DNA from: a virus
Reading direction: 5' to 3' (one strand)
IMG/VR virus record: IMGVR_UViG_3300022919_000006
Span: 1-46,471 of that record
Length of the DNA stretch: 46,471 nt
Shown: piece after piece, positions 9,535-40,935 of the stretch
How the letters are laid out: the number at the start of each line of letters is the position of its first letter
Numbering within the stretch: position 1 is the first letter of the stretch
The notes under the pieces: model-generated
The model's database searches: none
What the model was told of the DNA's origin: nothing
The model's input: the letters and a program-made list of their open reading frames with translations, nothing else
Made by a program: the position numbers and the translations under genes

Positions 9535-9606
9535 AGCGTTAAGGTGTAACTGGTCGCATTGAAGTCTCATAAACTTTACGGGCGGGTTCGAATCCCGAAA
9601 ACGCAA
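9535..9606 (+). tRNA. tRNA-Met(CAT), somewhat degenerate
   Basis: The cloverleaf can be drawn by hand: D stem 9544-9547/9556-9559 with GG in the loop, anticodon stem 9561-9565/9573-9577 with loop CTCATAA (anticodon CAT at 9568-9570), a 4-base variable loop, and T loop TTCGAAT with 4 of 5 stem pairs. The acceptor has five good pairs (9536-9540 with 9600-9604) and A-A mismatches at both ends. A mismatch at 1:72 is typical of initiator tRNA, but the three G-C pairs of an initiator anticodon stem are missing. An Ile(CAT) identity after lysidine modification is possible. No CCA is encoded. Confidence 0.75.
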
Positions 9607-9647
9607 CTAAACAACGTATGAAGTGATACGTATCTAATTAATAACCT

Positions 9648-10693: not shown

Positions 10694-13523
10694 ATAATTG
10701 TACGTTACGATTATCAGAGGCTTCTACCATTCCGTTTTTTGCGCCTTTTGCTGTTCCTGCTTCTGCGCCAATTGCAACAGCTTCCGCAATCATTAGTGCC
10801 AACTGTGAATTATTTGCATTATTATTCAAATCGTTTTGATTTAAAATGTTTGATGCTCCGTTTAATCCAACACCTCCACCTGCTTGATTTATTGCGCTTA
10901 ATTCATTAGCGAACATTGAGGTTGAACGTGCATTTATTACACTTTCTCCTGCGCTTAAATTAGCCGTAACATTGTCGCTTGTTCCGCTCCCAGAACCACG
11001 CAGTCCAATAACACCCGAATCAGGGAAGAAACCCGTCGCATAACTTGGTTTTTTAATCTCTGGACTTTTAGTGGCTGAAATCTTTTTTACGTTTTGCAAA
11101 CCTGAAACAACTGCCGCACCTGCTGCGAGCGCGCCCAATGCAGGACCAACTATAGGTATTCCTGCCATCGCGCTATAAGCCGATTGCGCAGCCTTATAAG
11201 TGTCAATGGTTGTTTGAGCAATTGCAGCCGCTTTTCCAGCTTTGCTTTCTGCTCCGAATATAGAAGCTAAATTACCAAATGTATCACTAGCTAATTGTAG
11301 TTTATTGTCTAAAGTAGCTTTATCAATATCTTTTTGAATCTGTGCATATTTGGCATTAATCAAGGAAATATCAGCACCAGTTTGTTCAGCGTTTAAAACT
11401 TCTTGCTGTCTTTTTATTTCATTCTGTTGCTTTTCAATTTCAGACTGTGCTAAGAAGTTTTCCTCGTTAATTACTTTTTGATTTTCTAAATCTAGTAATT
11501 GTTTTTCTTTCGCCTGGGCATCACGTTCAATTTGCAATTGCTCTTGCGAAATTCTGTTTTCTTCATTTATACGATTAATTTCTGCGTTATACTCCTGTTG
11601 GTTTATAGCACCGTTTTCTAAGCGTATTTTTTGAAATTCCTGTTCAGCCAGTAAATCATTTGTTAATGCTTGTTTTTTTATTTCATACTGAGCATCGGAT
11701 AAAAATTTAGTGCTTTCTAAAATCCTAGCGTTTTTATCTAATTCAATATTAAGTTCTAGTTCTGCATTTTGAATTGCTAATTCAGCATTCTTTTGAGCAA
11801 ATTCTGTTGCAATCTGCGCTTTACCTACCTCGTATTCCCTAGCAGATATTTTCTTTTTATCGTATTGTAATTTTAAATCAGCTAATTCTTTATCAGCTAA
11901 TTGTTTATTGAATGCAAATTCATCTTCTAAGGATTTCTTTTTAAATCCCTGAGTAGCTACAAATAAATCAATTTCAGCACGTGATTTTGTCAACGCTCTT
12001 TCAATTGCCTGTTCGTCTAATTCTTTTTGCTTATCGGATGCTTCTTTTCTTAATGAATTAAGATTAGCCAACTGTTCTGATTCTTGTCCCGTGATACGTT
12101 CTTGAATATCGGAAATATTAGTTAACGCCTCAGCACGTTGATCTAATGCCTCCGTTGTTTGTCCTTCTGCTTTTAATTTTAAGTTTGCAACTTGTAAAGC
12201 TTTATTTGCTATTGCCAACTCAGAAGCAGATTGTTTTTGCAATACAACTCCTAACTGGTTGTTTACAGCGATACGCTCCGAAATGGACTTAGTTTCATCA
12301 TCTCGTTGCTGTCTTAATTTTTCAGCTTGCTTTTGATAGTCTAATTGTATTTTTGTAGCCTGTCTTTGTTGTACTGCTAATTCTCCCTCAGCTTTTGCAA
12401 GATTAGCAGAAGCAACAGAAGCGTTTTTAACTTCTTGTGTAAAGTTTCTAATTCCTTTTGCGGTTTCTTCTGCTCCTACAAATTCCAAAACATTAGCCAA
12501 ACCATTAGCTACAGATTCAGCAACCTTGCCAACTAATTCCAATTGCTTTATAAATACATTTGCAAAGAACAAACCTAAGGGTTTTATTACTTTAAACAAC
12601 CCTTTGAATACACCAGTCACAGCACCAGTCACAACGGCTAATTTTTGCGTTCCTTCTTCTGTACTTTGTAAAGATTCTTTAGCTAATTTAAACGCACCAA
12701 CTACTGCGCCAACCGCAATAGCCAAAGCAGCGATAACAGCACCGATTGGAGTTGCTATAAATGCTAATCCTGCCTTTAATGCTCCAAGTATTCCCACACG
12801 AATAGCAGAAAAAGCACCTGTTAATACATTTCCTGCGCCTCCCGCTTGATTTGATTGTTGTATAAATCCACCCAAACCACCATTAAAAGCTTCTTGAGCT
12901 TCAAGAGCTGCCTCTATTCCTTCCTGATAATTACCAATATTCATGGCTTGCTGAGTAGTTCCGCTTGAATTAGCTCTTACAAACTCAGTATTTTGATCAA
13001 TTCTTTCATTAAGCAATTGCATTAAATTGGCTTCTTCCTCAATATTAGGGTTTAACTGGCTTACAATTCTGTTTAATTCTGCACTTGACGCTCTGGCATC
13101 GTTTCTATTATTAATTTGTCTTTCAAGAGCTTCAGTGCCTAGATTAATTAAAGAAGTTGTTTTACCTTCTGCATCTTGATAAGCCGTTAATTGTGTGGTT
13201 GTTTGTCTTATTTCTGTTCTAACCCTACTAATAGACGTTGCTAAATTTAATTCGGCTTTTTGTGCTTCTCTTTGAGTTTTTAATAAAGCATCTAGTTCTT
13301 TTTGGTTCGCTTCAATAGCATCGGTATTGTCTCCAGCAGATTCTTCTAAAGCACGTTGCGACTTAGTAAGTAAATCAATTTGTTTCTGAGTTTCTTTTGC
13401 CTGATCGGAATAAGCTTTTTGTTCTTTTCGCAAATCAAAATAAGTGTCCTGCAAATCGCTTAAACTACTTTGAAGCTTATTTGTATCTAATTGGAACGAT
13501 GCTAAATTTATAATCTCTGCCAT
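10680..13523 (-). CDS. Tail tape measure protein
   Basis: A 947-residue protein, the longest of the window, made mainly of long coiled-coil segments rich in Gln, Glu, Lys and Ala (residues 15-120 and 370-690). A hydrophobic block with two to three membrane-like helices (about 240-290, including FIATPIGAVIAALAIAVGAVVGAF interrupted by small residues) and an Ala/Gly-rich region near 740-780 follow the usual pattern. It would set tail length and pass through the host membrane during DNA entry. At about 0.15 nm per residue the predicted tail is about 140 nm. The long tail points to a siphovirus. Confidence 0.85.
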   Translation of the reverse strand: MAEIINLASFQLDTNKLQSSLSDLQDTYFDLRKEQKAYSDQAKETQKQIDLLTKSQRALEESAGDNTDAIEANQKELDALLKTQREAQKAELNLATSISRVRTEIRQTTTQLTAYQDAEGKTTSLINLGTEALERQINNRNDARASSAELNRIVSQLNPNIEEEANLMQLLNERIDQNTEFVRANSSGTTQQAMNIGNYQEGIEAALEAQEAFNGGLGGFIQQSNQAGGAGNVLTGAFSAIRVGILGALKAGLAFIATPIGAVIAALAIAVGAVVGAFKLAKESLQSTEEGTQKLAVVTGAVTGVFKGLFKVIKPLGLFFANVFIKQLELVGKVAESVANGLANVLEFVGAEETAKGIRNFTQEVKNASVASANLAKAEGELAVQQRQATKIQLDYQKQAEKLRQQRDDETKSISERIAVNNQLGVVLQKQSASELAIANKALQVANLKLKAEGQTTEALDQRAEALTNISDIQERITGQESEQLANLNSLRKEASDKQKELDEQAIERALTKSRAEIDLFVATQGFKKKSLEDEFAFNKQLADKELADLKLQYDKKKISAREYEVGKAQIATEFAQKNAELAIQNAELELNIELDKNARILESTKFLSDAQYEIKKQALTNDLLAEQEFQKIRLENGAINQQEYNAEINRINEENRISQEQLQIERDAQAKEKQLLDLENQKVINEENFLAQSEIEKQQNEIKRQQEVLNAEQTGADISLINAKYAQIQKDIDKATLDNKLQLASDTFGNLASIFGAESKAGKAAAIAQTTIDTYKAAQSAYSAMAGIPIVGPALGALAAGAAVVSGLQNVKKISATKSPEIKKPSYATGFFPDSGVIGLRGSGSGTSDNVTANLSAGESVINARSTSMFANELSAINQAGGGVGLNGASNILNQNDLNNNANNSQLALMIAEAVAIGAEAGTAKGAKNGMVEASDNRNVQLYAKF

Positions 13524-37033: not shown

Positions 37034-37083
37034 CGAACCCCCTCAACGACATTGAAGTAATTGATACGGTTGTTGGGGTTTGC
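37031..37083 (+). repeat. Possible boundary site of the cassette array
   Basis: It begins TAACG like the attC-like sites. AACCCC (37035-37040) pairs with GGGGTT (37075-37080) and CAAC with GTTG inside. Unlike the six clear sites it does not end in TGTTA. It may be an attI-like edge or a decayed site. Confidence 0.35.
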
Positions 37084-37086
37084 CAC

Positions 37087-37210
37087 TAACGGCTGATGCT
37101 ACACGATGGTTGGTTAAGCACAAAACCAACATCGATTTAAGACAAATTATTCAAGTGCAAAACAAACTTTAAATTAAACAATCAACCCAGCTATTGTGTA
37201 GCATATGTTA
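37087..37210 (+). repeat. attC-like site 1
   Basis: Left core TAACGGCT and right core ATATGTTA. Arms ATGCTACACGAT (from 37095) and ATTGTGTAGCAT (to 37204) are nearly perfect complements. The left arm has a longer unpaired spacer than the right, as in the other sites. The preceding boundary has no matching partner upstream. Confidence 0.65.
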
Positions 37211-37237
37211 CTGGCTGTGTTTTTAAAATCAAACATT

Positions 37238-37597
37238 ATGGAATTAGGAAAATTGAAAAACCATTTTGAACAAATGGAATCAGGAAAAGTATTAGATTAC
37301 AAATTAAGCAAACCATTCTCTTGGAGAGGTGTTTATGCTGAATGTGCTTTTGAAATATTAAAAGAAAGTTCTACAAAAGAAGAAAATATAGCACAAATAG
37401 AAAAAGCATTAACCGAAGAATTTCACGGCTACAAAGGTGGTGAATTTAGATATGATTTAGACACCGAAGTTCATTTTGAAACTGATTGTGGTAGTTGGTC
37501 AGATGGTGGCTATTCAAGAAGGCTAATTGAAGAAATTAAACAAGAAAAGCAATATGATTCGGTTGAAGAAGAACTCGTTAATCTGATATTTCTGTAA
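37238..37597 (+). CDS. Cassette 1 protein, unknown, 119 aa
   Basis: It starts MELGKLKNHFEQMESGKVLD. An in-frame ATG at 37205 overlaps the recombination core and adds 11 residues. Acidic with a conserved-looking centre, KPFSWRGVYAECAFEI and CGSWSDGGYSRR. Twelve of the last thirteen bases before the next core are complementary to the cassette's start. Function unknown. Confidence 0.65.
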   Translation: MELGKLKNHFEQMESGKVLDYKLSKPFSWRGVYAECAFEILKESSTKEENIAQIEKALTEEFHGYKGGEFRYDLDTEVHFETDCGSWSDGGYSRRLIEEIKQEKQYDSVEEELVNLIFL

Positions 37598-37606
37598 CAT
37601 AGCCAG

Positions 37607-37688
37607 TAACGTTTTGTAGCTTGGCGATGTGCCAAACGGAAACTTGAATTAAAAAATAATCATCTGGCATATTGCCAAACCGCTGTTA
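37607..37688 (+). repeat. attC-like site 2
   Basis: TAACG at the left, CTGTTA at the right, shortest of the six (82 bp). Paired arms are TTGGCGATGTGCCA and TGGCATATTGCCAA. The left spacer is about five bases and the right one. Confidence 0.65.
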
Positions 37689-37723
37689 TAGTAAGTGGCG
37701 GGTAATTTAAAAAAATAATAATT

Positions 37724-37972
37724 ATGGATTTATTAATAAAATTTACAGATTCTTCAAATTCATTTACTTTAGGGTGTGAATATGGAAGGTTGTTATCAAT
37801 GTTTGAAAAAGGTATTGAAACAATAGAAAATAATGGATTTCCAATTCATTTACAAAATAAAGAAGTAATTATATCTACTTGTAGCAATTTTGGATATATA
37901 CCGATTTTTGGAGAAACATATTACGATGAATGGATAGACTTTAAAGCTATTAAAAATAGTAACTTCAATTGA
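37724..37972 (+). CDS. Cassette 2 protein, unknown, 82 aa
   Basis: MDLLIKFTDSSNSFTLGCEY, with GRLLSMFEKGIETIENNG after it. It starts 36 bases after the core with an A-rich leader. The FTLGCEYGRLL outline resembles small mobile proteins with FxxGxExGxL helices. It is alone in its cassette. Function unknown. Confidence 0.6.
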   Translation: MDLLIKFTDSSNSFTLGCEYGRLLSMFEKGIETIENNGFPIHLQNKEVIISTCSNFGYIPIFGETYYDEWIDFKAIKNSNFN

Positions 37973-37995
37973 AGACGAATCGTAGCTATTTACTA

Positions 37996-38122
37996 TAACG
38001 TTTGCAGGTTGTACACGTTGCGGAGAGCCAAAAACCATAATTACTAACACAAAAACATCATTAAATTATGCCTAAAAAATCAAGTACAAACCCAATACCG
38101 CAATGCGTACAACCTGCTGTTA
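37996..38122 (+). repeat. attC-like site 3
   Basis: Strongest pairing of the set: GCAGGTTGTAC (38002-38012) against GTACAACCTGC (38107-38117), then TTGCGG against CCGCAA. Core ends are TAACG and CTGTTA. The spacer holds an ATG (38068) whose frame runs through the right arm into cassette 3. Confidence 0.7.
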
Positions 38123-38355
38123 CCAGTAGTTATTTATTTGACTGGAATACGATAAAAGACAAAATTATTGAACCTGAATATTTTATGGGAGTTGATACTT
38201 ATGATAAAAAAAGAAATGCTTATTGCTTAACTAGACGTGTTGATGGAACTACCGAAGTATTATTATCAAAAGTAATTAAAGACGAAAACGACTTTGAAAA
38301 AGAAGTTGAAAATTTAGCAAAATATTTTAATGCAAAAGTTCTTCGTAGTTATTAA
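38068..38355 (+). CDS. Cassette 3 protein a, translation may begin inside attC
   Basis: A 95-residue reading whose first 17 or so residues (MPKKSSTNPIPQCVQPA) are encoded by the spacer and right arm of site 3. The cassette-borne part (from SSYLFDWNTIKDKII) continues through YFMGVDTYDKKRNAYC and LSKVIKDENDFEKEVENLAK and reads like a real protein. An internal start at 38185 (MGVDTYDK) would leave only 56 residues. The GVDTYD strand resembles the start of RNase H-like folds, as in terminase nucleases, but too little remains to call an enzyme. Confidence 0.55.
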   Translation: MPKKSSTNPIPQCVQPAVTSSYLFDWNTIKDKIIEPEYFMGVDTYDKKRNAYCLTRRVDGTTEVLLSKVIKDENDFEKEVENLAKYFNAKVLRSY

Positions 38356-38375
38356 ACGAATAATTATAAAAAAAT

Positions 38376-38684
38376 ATGATAGCAAAAAAAGTTACTAGAT
38401 ATTATTCAGATTGTGGAAGAGGTTTTTGGAGAAAACAACAGGCAATAACTCACGATGTAAATTGTAAATGTTGGAAAAATCCAATTCATAAAACTTGCTT
38501 AAGTTGTAAATTCAAAAACATAATCAATGATAGCAACGGAATGGAAGATGAACCACAATTTTTACAAACGTGGAAACAAAATAATTGTAAAAATCCTGAA
38601 ATGGATATGGATAAAATGTTTATTCCTGCTCACGAAAATGCACCTGAAATTTGTATAAGATGCCCAAAATGGACTGCGAAATAG
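38376..38684 (+). CDS. Cassette 3 protein b, cysteine-rich, 102 aa
   Basis: The second gene of the same cassette. Cys-x-Cys-Trp and Cys-x2-Cys pairs (DVNCKCWKNP, KTCLSCKFKN) plus ICIRCPKW at the end suggest one or two zinc-binding sites. It starts 20 bases after protein a. A cassette with two genes is less usual than one. Confidence 0.6.
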   Translation: MIAKKVTRYYSDCGRGFWRKQQAITHDVNCKCWKNPIHKTCLSCKFKNIINDSNGMEDEPQFLQTWKQNNCKNPEMDMDKMFIPAHENAPEICIRCPKWTAK

Positions 38685-38715
38685 TTCTTATGAAAACTAA
38701 AAGCATAATTACTGG

Positions 38716-38800
38716 TAACGGAGGATGATAAGAGCAGTTTGCTACTACAGAAGCTGAATCGAAGGACTGAACGTCTGCAAATTGCTTTTATCATATGTTA
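38716..38800 (+). repeat. attC-like site 4
   Basis: TAACGG at the left, ATATGTTA at the right. Arms GATGATAAGAGCA and TGCTTTTATCAT pair imperfectly, followed by TTTGC/GCAAA. 85 bp. Confidence 0.65.
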
Positions 38801-38840
38801 CCATCATACCACGTATTATTAACAAATAAAAGAATAAAAA

Positions 38841-39233
38841 ATGAAAGCAATTATCAAAGTTGAAAAAGAAGTAGAAATTAGAAAAGTAAAATTACAAGTA
38901 GCCGTAAGATATGATGATGAAGATATTCCTTATAATTTTCCATTAAGAAATGGAAATATGTGGAATGCTACAATCGATATTGATGGAGGAAGAGTTCTTG
39001 ACTGGCCTAAAGGGAAAAAAGGAAATCTTGAAATGAAAATATGTGATGAAGGATCTTATTATTTGCTTGATGAAGATGATAATGTTGTTTTGTCATTAGA
39101 ACAGGATTATGTACCAAATAAATTATTGCCTGGAGAATATGGAGATTACTTAAAACTTCATATTGATGAAAATGGATTAATTACAAACTGGTACTCAAAA
39201 CCATCTATCGCAGATTTTATAGACGAAGATTAA
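38841..39233 (+). CDS. Cassette 4 protein, conserved in phages, 130 aa
   Basis: MKAIIKVEKEVEIRKVKLQV, then RYDDEDIPYNFP, then WNATIDIDGGRVLDWPKGKK and YYLLDEDDN, GEYGDYLKLHIDENG. I recognise this overall layout from small proteins spread among phages of unrelated hosts, which fits cassette exchange. Function unknown. Confidence 0.65.
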   Translation: MKAIIKVEKEVEIRKVKLQVAVRYDDEDIPYNFPLRNGNMWNATIDIDGGRVLDWPKGKKGNLEMKICDEGSYYLLDEDDNVVLSLEQDYVPNKLLPGEYGDYLKLHIDENGLITNWYSKPSIADFIDED

Positions 39234-39255
39234 CCGCAATATTGGCGGTTGATGG

Positions 39256-39385
39256 TAACGTCCTGCAGATAGGCGAAGGCAATTGCCGATAAAAAATAAT
39301 CTTTAAATTAATCATAAATAACAACAAAATGAAAACAAAATTTAAATTCAAGAACCAATTAATTGCTTGCGCTTATGTGCTGTTA
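39256..39385 (+). repeat. attC-like site 5
   Basis: TAACGTCCT and GCTGTTA cores. GCAGATAGGCG (39264-39274) pairs imperfectly with CGCTTATGTGC (39370-39380). 130 bp. The right arm encodes part of a signal peptide. Confidence 0.65.
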
Positions 39386-39610
39386 GTAGCTGTTTTTCTT
39401 GTCGGATGCGAAAAAGAACCTGCCACTAAAGCCAATGAGTATTTATCAGACAAACCCGTTTACGAAATAGTTACGGGGGTAAAATATAGAATAGTAGTTA
39501 TTGATTCCTGCGAATATTTATTCGGAACAGATGGAGGTGCTTATAACGGTGGTTATTTTTTATCTCATAAAGGTAATTGTAAGTTCTGTTTAGCACGTCA
39601 CGCAAAATAG
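39329..39610 (+). CDS. Cassette 5 lipoprotein with signal peptide crossing the attC core
   Basis: A 93-residue lipoprotein: MKTKFKFKNQLIACAYVLLV, then VFLVGC with the lipidated Cys27. The start codon and first 18 residues are encoded by the preceding site; the recombination core (GTTA, 39382-39385) falls in the middle of the hydrophobic stretch. Thus the signal peptide is assembled from two parts. The mature protein has three Cys (SCEY, NCKFC) that could form disulfides in the periplasm. Confidence 0.6.
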   Translation: MKTKFKFKNQLIACAYVLLVAVFLVGCEKEPATKANEYLSDKPVYEIVTGVKYRIVVIDSCEYLFGTDGGAYNGGYFLSHKGNCKFCLARHAK

Positions 39611-39614
39611 CTAC

Positions 39615-39742
39615 TAACGTTCTGCAACTTGTGGTAGTTTGGGGTAAATAAATCCTAAAGTACCGATTCAAAACAGATTTTACAAATACAAGACTAAAAA
39701 TAAATTAATAACTAATGCCCGAATTACCACAAATTGCTGTTA
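39615..39742 (+). repeat. attC-like site 6
   Basis: TAACGTTCT and GCTGTTA cores. GCAACTTGTGGTA (39623-39635) pairs with TACCACAAATTGC (39725-39737), 11 of 13. 128 bp. The spacer holds an ATG (39715) whose 14-codon frame ends inside cassette 6. Confidence 0.7.
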
Positions 39743-39776
39743 TAGCTTGTGGTGGGTAACTAAAACAAAACGTTTT

Positions 39777-40136
39777 ATGAAAAACTTAAAAGTAGTAAAA
39801 GTAGATTCAGATTCAGTTGAATTTGATAACGGAGTAAAATTATACTCAAATCACGACCAAGATTGTTGTGAAAATCATTATTTATCAATGAGCGATTTAA
39901 CTATTGCTGATTTTGATGGATTGGAATTTGACTTATCAAATGATGATTTCTTTGAAAGAATTGAAGATTATGGAATTGCGTTAAAGCCGATAAAAGGGCA
40001 TCCTGTGAGAATACCTGGTTATGGTTCTAACAATGGATATTATTCATCAAACCTAGATTTAATAATTACAAACCCTGATGGAAGAACAACTTATAAAGAG
40101 TACAATATTTCCGAATGCCAAGACTGGAACGACTAA
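39777..40136 (+). CDS. Cassette 6 protein, 119 aa
   Basis: MKNLKVVKVDSDSVEFDNGV, then DQDCCENHYLSMSDL and GHPVRIPGYGSNNGYYSSNL. The layout (beta start, DCCExHY, VRIPGYGSNxGYYS) matches a known unknown-function family (DUF7448-like). It starts 35 bases after the core, preceded by an A-rich leader. An in-frame start ten codons upstream is less likely. Confidence 0.65.
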   Translation: MKNLKVVKVDSDSVEFDNGVKLYSNHDQDCCENHYLSMSDLTIADFDGLEFDLSNDDFFERIEDYGIALKPIKGHPVRIPGYGSNNGYYSSNLDLIITNPDGRTTYKEYNISECQDWND

Positions 40137-40162
40137 TGAAAACGAAATCGAGCCATAAGCTA

Positions 40163-40403
40163 TAACTACTTTATACTCGTTACTAACTATATTAAACCCT
40201 TGTAAATAATGGAACAAAACCTTGACAACAGTTATTTTATAACTTATTCAAATTACTTTGAATTAGAGGGTAAAACTTTTTCGTTTAGGAAAAATTATTG
40301 TATTTTTGATTAAACGTTACAGCATCTCAATTAAAGTAACAAAAAAAATATAACGGCCAATTATACAAAGAACGAGTTGAGATGCGTTTAGAGTATGGTT
40401 GGC
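40163..40403 (+). repeat. Possible degenerate attC-like site 7 at the array's right edge
   Basis: It begins TAACTACTT; TATACTC (40171-40177) pairs with GAGTATG (40391-40397), followed by GTTGGC. At 241 bp it is twice the usual length and holds a promoter and leader C. The left core is supported by its match to cassette 6's start (13/14); the right end is doubtful. Confidence 0.35.
40301..40308 (+). promoter_or_regulatory. -7 box for leader C transcript
   Basis: TATTTTTG fits TAnnTTTG. No TTG at the usual distance upstream. Leader C's GCATCTCAA starts 14 bases downstream. Confidence 0.5.
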
Positions 40404-40413
40404 ATTTTTATTT
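40322..40413 (+). ncRNA. Leader RNA C: hairpin with 5'-end-complementary loop
   Basis: GCATCTCAA (40322-40330) lies near the transcript start. GCCAATTATAC (40356-40366) pairs with GTATGGTTGGC (40393-40403), 11 bp with two U.G wobbles. Inside, AACG pairs with CGTT around a 10-base loop. The loop region contains TTGAGATGC (40377-40385), the perfect 9-base complement of the 5' end. ATTTTTATTT follows. The inner part is alike in sequence to leader A (shared TGAGAYGCG and TATGG). It ends four bases before the HNH start codon. Confidence 0.6.
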
Positions 40414-40416
40414 AAT

Positions 40417-40935
40417 ATGGAAATTTGGAAAGAAGTAAAAGGATATGAAAATTATTTTTATGTAAGTAATTTTGGAAATATAAAAAGAAAGAAAAGAAAT
40501 TCTTCAAACGGGAAGAATTTAAATGAAAAAATCTATTCTCCATATAAAGACAAAGATGGGTATCTTGTTTTTAGACCTATAATAAATAAACGACAAATAG
40601 TTTTAAAGATTCATAGATTAGTCGCAATTACATTTATTTCTAATCCAGATAAAAAAAAATGCGTAAATCATATTGACGGGAATAAAACAAATAATTTATT
40701 AAAAAACTTAGAATGGTGTACTAATAAAGAAAACACTAATCACGCTTGGTCTATTGGGTTAAATAAAAAACATCGTTCAAAAAAAGTAATAAACAAAATA
40801 ACTAATGAAGTTTTTGATTCGATAATAGATGCCTCAAAATCTATAAATAGAAGTGCTTTTTACTTGTCTAAAAGGCTTCTTGGAAAAACAGTAAACAATA
40901 CTGATATGATTTATTTAAAATCCAAATTAAATTAG
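40417..40935 (+). CDS. HNH homing endonuclease (NUMOD4-HNH-NUMOD1)
   Basis: A 172-residue free-standing endonuclease. N-terminal [20 protein letters not shown] is the NUMOD4 element, [18 protein letters not shown] with His85 and Asn92 is the HNH core, and the end ([20 protein letters not shown]) is a NUMOD1 DNA-binding helix. A TTG codon at 40399 is possible but the ATG fits the domain start. Leader C precedes it closely, so it may be regulated by that RNA. It cuts and copies itself into DNA that lacks it; target unknown. Confidence 0.85.

Follow-up and report, generated by a model that had tools for sequence, protein, structure and literature searches.

A cassette array in a tailed phage of Bacteroidota

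We analyzed a stretch of viral DNA of 46,471 nucleotides (IMG/VR record IMGVR_UViG_3300022919_000006; the whole stretch is hereafter called the window). This virus is a tailed phage of Bacteroidota, and its genes include a large terminase, a portal, a maturation protease and a tape measure. Small genes alternating with hairpin sites close a short rightward operon (RecT, hydrolase) on its 3' side; this operon and a leftward one are convergent. A preliminary description had placed an integron-like array of six units at positions 37087–40166, and the six cassettes that we delineated, each a hairpin followed by one or two genes, cover almost the same span to the base (37091–40166). We scanned both strands of the whole window for sites with AACG, a stem score of at least 8 and TGTTA (strict scan). 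The scan returned exactly the six predicted TAACG...TGTTA sites, all on the plus strand, and none on the minus strand; 0.67 sites per strand are expected by chance (first-order Markov simulations).

All six cassettes are oriented on the plus strand. Cassette 1 (37091..37610) is composed of hairpin H0 (37088..37209; AACGGCTG-ATGCTACAC...GTGTAGCAT-AT-GTT; stem score 12) and of a gene encoding 119 aa (37238-37597; phrog_12889); its start reads GTTACTGGCTGTG and the reverse complement of its own end reads GTTACTGGCTATG. Cassette 2 (37611..37999; ends GTTATAGTAAGTGGC and GTTATAGTAAATAGC) contains hairpin H1 (37608..37687) and a gene of 82 aa (37724-37972). Two open reading frames (ORFs), 38068-38355 and 38376-38684, follow hairpin H2 (37997..38121; stem score 15) in cassette 3 (38000..38719; ends GTTACCAGTAGTTAT and GTTACCAGTAATTAT), and the start codon of the first lies inside H2, its reading frame crossing the GTT. 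Cassette 4 (38720..39259; ends GTTACCATCATACC and GTTACCATCAACCG) presents hairpin H3 (38717..38799) and a gene of 130 aa (38841-39233). The lipoprotein-like gene of cassette 5 (39260..39618; ends GTTAGTAGCTGTTTT and GTTAGTAGCTATTTT) spans both hairpin and unit (39329-39610; 93 aa; phrog_19356): hairpin H4 (39257..39384) holds its start and most of its lipoprotein-type signal peptide, and the frame again crosses the GTT. Finally, cassette 6 (39619..40166; ends GTTATAGCTTGTGG and GTTATAGCTTATGG) consists of hairpin H5 (39616..39741) and a gene of 119 aa (39777-40136; DUF7448, Pfam PF24240).

The arm sequences differ at every site. The preliminary description had reported that each unit, i.e., the segment that runs from a GTT to the next AAC, starts with a sequence complementary to its own end, and this was borne out. 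Beyond the shared GTTA, units 1 to 6 match their own ends at, respectively, 10, 9, 10, 8, 10 and 9 of 12 positions, whereas the other pairs of unit ends match at 3.5 positions on average (maximum 7), and the own pairing of the six units is the best among all 720 permutations. The six sites further present the palindrome, the AAC/GTT core boxes and the internal L''/L' stem of attC sites. Because R'' is complementary to its own R', the site would be re-formed in a circular cassette. As previously noted, no integrase is encoded nearby: the whole window contains no match to the tyrosine recombinases (PF00589) and therefore no intI in cis. Based on our custom scanner, the locus thus qualifies as a cluster of attC sites lacking integron integrases (CALIN; at least two attC close together, no intI).

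The mobile unit and its exchange between sister phages

We compared P12002L and P12002S, two sister phages whose main shared segments are 97.6–99.7% identical in the array region. All five junctions of shared and differing sequence that we examined sit at AAC|G. Two of them delimit array 1, on the left and on the right (where AAC gives way to the conserved right flank), one separates a shared unit from the differing hairpins after it, and two are the ends of a cassette with a methyltransferase gene. This last cassette (hairpin and gene; 970 nt) is 100% identical in the two phages, and it is preceded by different units and followed by different sequences. In these relatives, gain, loss or movement has therefore affected whole cassettes of hairpin and gene, whose junctions are exactly at AAC|G. 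The preliminary reading would have been refuted by a fixed block of genes without exchange, which is not what we observed. Likewise, 421 bp are exactly duplicated in a chromosomal array linked to intI (L138), with the same borders: AAC, hairpin, GTT, unit, AAC.

The sister-phage junctions and this duplication show that the mobile unit is the hairpin together with what comes after it, read AACG first. The preliminary description had cassettes joined at GTT, with each site assigned to the preceding gene; our own first working model was the same and was dropped after the comparison of P12002L and P12002S. The hairpin-first unit explains why the left flank of the first hairpin in phage arrays pairs with nothing and why the arrays end at an AAC without a trailing hairpin. 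We had initially taken the missing hairpin behind the last unit for decay, an idea that was abandoned since hairpin-first cassettes predict its absence. It also explains why ORFs 38068 and 39329 start in hairpins 2 and 4 and cross the GTT, which in turn indicates that the GTT is not a border of the mobile unit. In the wider set of phage arrays, 13 of the 43 units present such an ORF (counting ATG starts only). The junctions of P12002L and P12002S, not the window phage, point to a crossover at G|TT, which reads AA|C on the opposite strand.

Homologues of gene 39329-39610 in other phage contigs align with it from residue 1. A conserved lipoprotein signal peptide (YVLLVAV) is encoded by the hairpin and the R box in this gene and in contigs L168 (506-769) and L186 (259-507), so that the recombination site is also coding sequence.

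Inverted gene polarity

Canonical cassettes present a gene followed by an attC at its 3' end; in the window, the attC precedes the gene. We compared phage arrays with intI-linked arrays of the same phylum and found genes on the AACG-first strand in 42 of 44 phage units and in 5 of 53 intI-linked units (42:2 and 5:48; P = 2 × 10−19; Fisher test). The phage arrays were found partly through their cassette proteins and are thus not a random sample, and some IMG/VR contigs may be fragments or contain host DNA; P12002L, P12002S and Peternella_1 are, however, complete genomes of named phages. The inverted polarity is consistent across about 15 phage contigs, and both exceptions (L089, 16977; L175, 574) have an ORF on the AACG-first strand that starts in the hairpin. 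In contrast, the intI-linked arrays of Bacteroidota have the gene sense AAC(A/C)...CGTT, as do class 1 cassettes, for which our control sites were all canonical (6/6).

The clue to this inversion was the spacer asymmetry of the sites. The left spacers were described from the start as longer than the right ones, and this holds for 64 of 65 phage sites (median 5 and 2 nt, respectively). In addition, the AACG-first strand is the more stable one in 43/43 phage sites and in 46/53 intI-linked sites. Since the sites of both sets are oriented alike by spacer asymmetry and by strand stability, it is the genes, and not the sites, that are turned round. These results show that the hairpin precedes the gene and that polarity is inverted relative to canonical cassettes, which appears to be a new property of phage cassettes.

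A structural class of attC-type sites

The R stem of the 43 phage units matches almost perfectly at positions 1–9, then at a frequency of 0.79 at position 10 and 0.02 at position 11, where the start is G and the end A in 37 units. Matching resumes at positions 12–15 (0.77–0.93), yielding a 15-bp stem, whereas the R stem of intI-linked sites matches up to position 10 or 11 and falls off afterwards. In the L stem, 55 of 65 phage sites present G/A differences (G·T wobbles on the coding strand), which are absent from positions 1–6 and lie almost exclusively at positions 7–16. Altogether, phage L arms contain 80 G/A wobbles and few gaps; in the intI-linked arms (71 sites), one-sided gaps exceed 150, in line with extrahelical bases. 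The phage sites thus constitute what appears to be a new structural class, distinct from the intI-linked sites of the same phylum. Strand choice in these sites may rest on the wobbles, which correspond to C·A mismatches on the other strand.

Some sequence elements recur among these arrays. Three 46-bp hairpins of phage contig L089 (8502-17208; about 14 cassettes) are almost the same and have a TCGTTTTAATG loop, which recurs in P12002L sites. In P12002L (reverse-complement positions 11425 and 19451), an identical 68-bp element extends from the last AAC of both arrays and represents a candidate attI-like end; L101 contains a pair similar to it (5301 and 15292), and no clear counterpart was seen in the window.

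Setting of the array and spread of its genes

The left flank of the array (37035..37087, plus strand) extends up to the array border from the point where the phage operon ends and contains GCCACTAAC, for which no complementary partner is present, as expected for a target flank. The right flank (40167..40210, plus strand) lies directly 3' of the last AAC and contains no hairpin site; its equivalent is conserved in P12002L and P12002S, and this may be the position of an attI-like end. Reading the sequence, we noticed a possible degenerate seventh site on the plus strand (40311..40394; AAACGTTACAGCATCTCAA...TTGAGATGCGTTTAG) directly before an HNH endonuclease gene (40399-40935); it was missed by the strict scan, and its unit ends show no complementarity to anything nearby. 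Elsewhere in the window, we found a tRNA-Met gene (9535-9607), and an Rfam cmscan of the window gave zero matches. A phage related to that of the window (contig L007) carries another array of the same kind at a comparable position. In Freya phages, which share the hydrolase, different genes are annotated downstream of it, and no array is evident from the annotation (no site scan was made).

The cassette genes themselves are unevenly distributed. Using the same query, relatives of the DUF7448 gene of cassette 6 were found in 42 viral contigs and at two bacterial loci. In several of these viral contigs, among them the complete genome of Winogradskyella phage Peternella_1, this gene stands beside such sites, with unit ends that are different yet self-complementary; cassette 6 thus recurs in several unrelated phages. 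Other contigs carry it without a site, indicating that the genes also exist outside cassettes. The gene of cassette 1 likewise has a homologue (87% nucleotide identity) without sites in a phage contig (L077). When viral sequences were scanned with the proteins of cassettes 1 and 3 (3a for the latter), one relative and none were found, respectively. Finally, phage contig G003, to which L089 belongs, and phage contig G004 share that array of about fourteen sites.

Integrases and the link to integrons

IntI was detected above the curated cut-off of TIGR02249 in 105 of 395 sampled Bacteroidota genomes (family search). By comparison, IntegronFinder 2.0 found complete integrons to be rare in Bacteroidetes among complete RefSeq genomes (PMC9024848). 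We fetched twenty intI flanks and nine of them contain arrays of self-complementary units with the same architecture as in the window. This indicates that the window sites belong to the integron world of the phylum and agrees with the integron-like nature initially proposed for the array. Many IMG/VR contigs (L227-L306) have a gene for an IntI-like integrase that shares about 50% identity with the IntI of Bacteroidota, and they mostly lack recognizable arrays of this type; among those checked for linked phage-type arrays, no convincing case was found. Phage CALINs have been reported, including that of Polaribacter phage P12002L (Qi et al. 2023; PMC9892861), and one site of this phage, P12002L_attC2, was recombined by IntI1, while its top strand gave no product (PMC9892861). 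This is the only site of the kind for which recombination by IntI is published.

Interpretation

We consider it likely that the locus consists of six attC-type cassettes without an integrase, each a hairpin followed by one or two genes, in a tailed phage of Bacteroidota; as a phage CALIN, it is of an already known kind. The recombinase would act in trans and would be a tyrosine recombinase, most likely the integrase of a host integron. It would fold the AACG-first strand, which is here the coding strand, and recombine between AA and C, the mirror of the canonical G|TT. Captured genes would be collinear with the phage operon and could be transcribed from upstream phage promoters, and the cassettes would circulate mainly among phages. 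The broader proposal that Bacteroidota phages keep a cassette pool apart from that of their hosts, with a 5' attC hairpin, wobble-coded sites and phage-to-phage circulation by a recombinase in trans, has in our view about an even chance of being correct.

Several observations weigh against this reading. Gain and loss of cassettes were seen in P12002L and P12002S and not in the window phage itself. Two contigs (L040 and L078) have a unit in common that starts at the GTT, but their hairpins differ. This points to a junction on the opposite side or to a replacement of the hairpin; the hairpin-first model needs a second kind of event to explain this pattern. The canonical extrahelical bases are mostly absent from the L arm of the phage sites, which we therefore file as an attC variant rather than canonical attC, and sites were called by custom scripts, not by IntegronFinder. 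Finally, no recombinase of the phage cassettes was identified, and IntI is absent from the array-bearing phages examined.

This absence, along with a structural class of sites devoid of canonical bulged bases, would also fit a phage-specific system whose recombinase is not IntI and has converged on an attC-like hairpin. We regard this as unlikely: the AAC|G crossover and the hairpin polarity are the same as in intI-linked sites, and IntI1 does recombine P12002L_attC2. Somewhat less plausible is an ordinary host CALIN, in which a fragment of a canonical Bacteroidota array entered the phage by illegitimate recombination and became fixed, with no particular polarity or phage pool. The architecture is indeed common to chromosomal arrays, phage CALINs are already known (PMC9892861) and 5 of 53 host cassettes have likewise inverted genes. 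However, such an origin leaves aside the consistently opposite polarity of the phage contigs, their different R stem and wobble pattern, the predominantly viral distribution of the DUF7448 gene and the exchange that still takes place between sister phages. A simple collection of genes from host integrons, as initially suggested, is similarly doubtful, because most host cassettes have genes of the opposite polarity and sites of a different structure and because cassette 6 is found almost only in phages.

The inverted repeats at the unit ends (GTTA...TAAC) could alternatively define small transposon-like units with the hairpins as separate spacers, and the unit shared by L040 and L078 without its preceding hairpin would fit. 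We find this very improbable, given that neither a transposase nor a target duplication was seen, that duplicated or shared segments take in the preceding hairpin exactly, and that ORFs extend from the hairpin into the unit. That the hairpins are transcription terminators or mRNA elements with incidental pairing of unit ends hardly deserves consideration, even though the coding strand, hence the mRNA, has the more stable fold in 43/43 sites: the two ends of a unit pair with exact positions and far more often than by chance, the window hairpins are not followed by a T run, and the sister-phage junctions at AAC|G are our ground for rejection.

Phages constantly swap accessory genes by routes that usually cannot be traced; for the attC-type cassettes described here, both the units and the points where they are cut can be seen exactly. 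Should the inverted polarity prove true, phages would own an integron-like exchange system adapted to phage operons, and cassette capture could be traced directly in sister phages. Two questions arise: does a host integrase work for a pool of viral genes, and can G·T wobbles take over the role of bulged bases when the strand is chosen?

Comparison with known systems

Short sites flanking exchangeable genes are also found in XerC/D pdif modules and REP-type palindromes. The pdif sites are about 28 bp long with conserved arms; in the window, every site has different arms, each complementary to its own partner alone. Class 1 cassettes (dfrA12, aadA2, aadA22, dfrA37 and aac(6')-Ib) share with the window the palindromic attC and the AAC/GTT cores, but all their sites, in gene sense, lie 3' of the gene as AAC(A/C)...CGTT, opposite to the arrangement in phage arrays.

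The closest published counterparts are phage CALINs (PMC9892861): the attC clusters of P12002L lack an integrase and present self-complementary units and hairpin-first cassettes as in the window. The authors noted the "divergent directions" of P12002L attC and ascribed them to mosaicism; the available part of that article contains no report of the hairpin moving with the gene behind it, of a polarity rule, of a site class or of the exchange between P12002L and P12002S. The TJE1 array of the same study differs in starting with AACA and in having an extra base in the left arm, which gives it a canonical look. Finally, the chromosomal integrons of Bacteroidota (IntI, TIGR02249) resemble the window array in their AACG-first hairpins, own-end complementarity of about 10 bp, AAC|G crossover and succession of hairpin and unit, read toward intI. 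They differ by their genes on the opposite strand (48/53), an R stem broken from position 12 instead of the fixed mismatch at position 11, one-sided gaps in one arm and the presence of intI.

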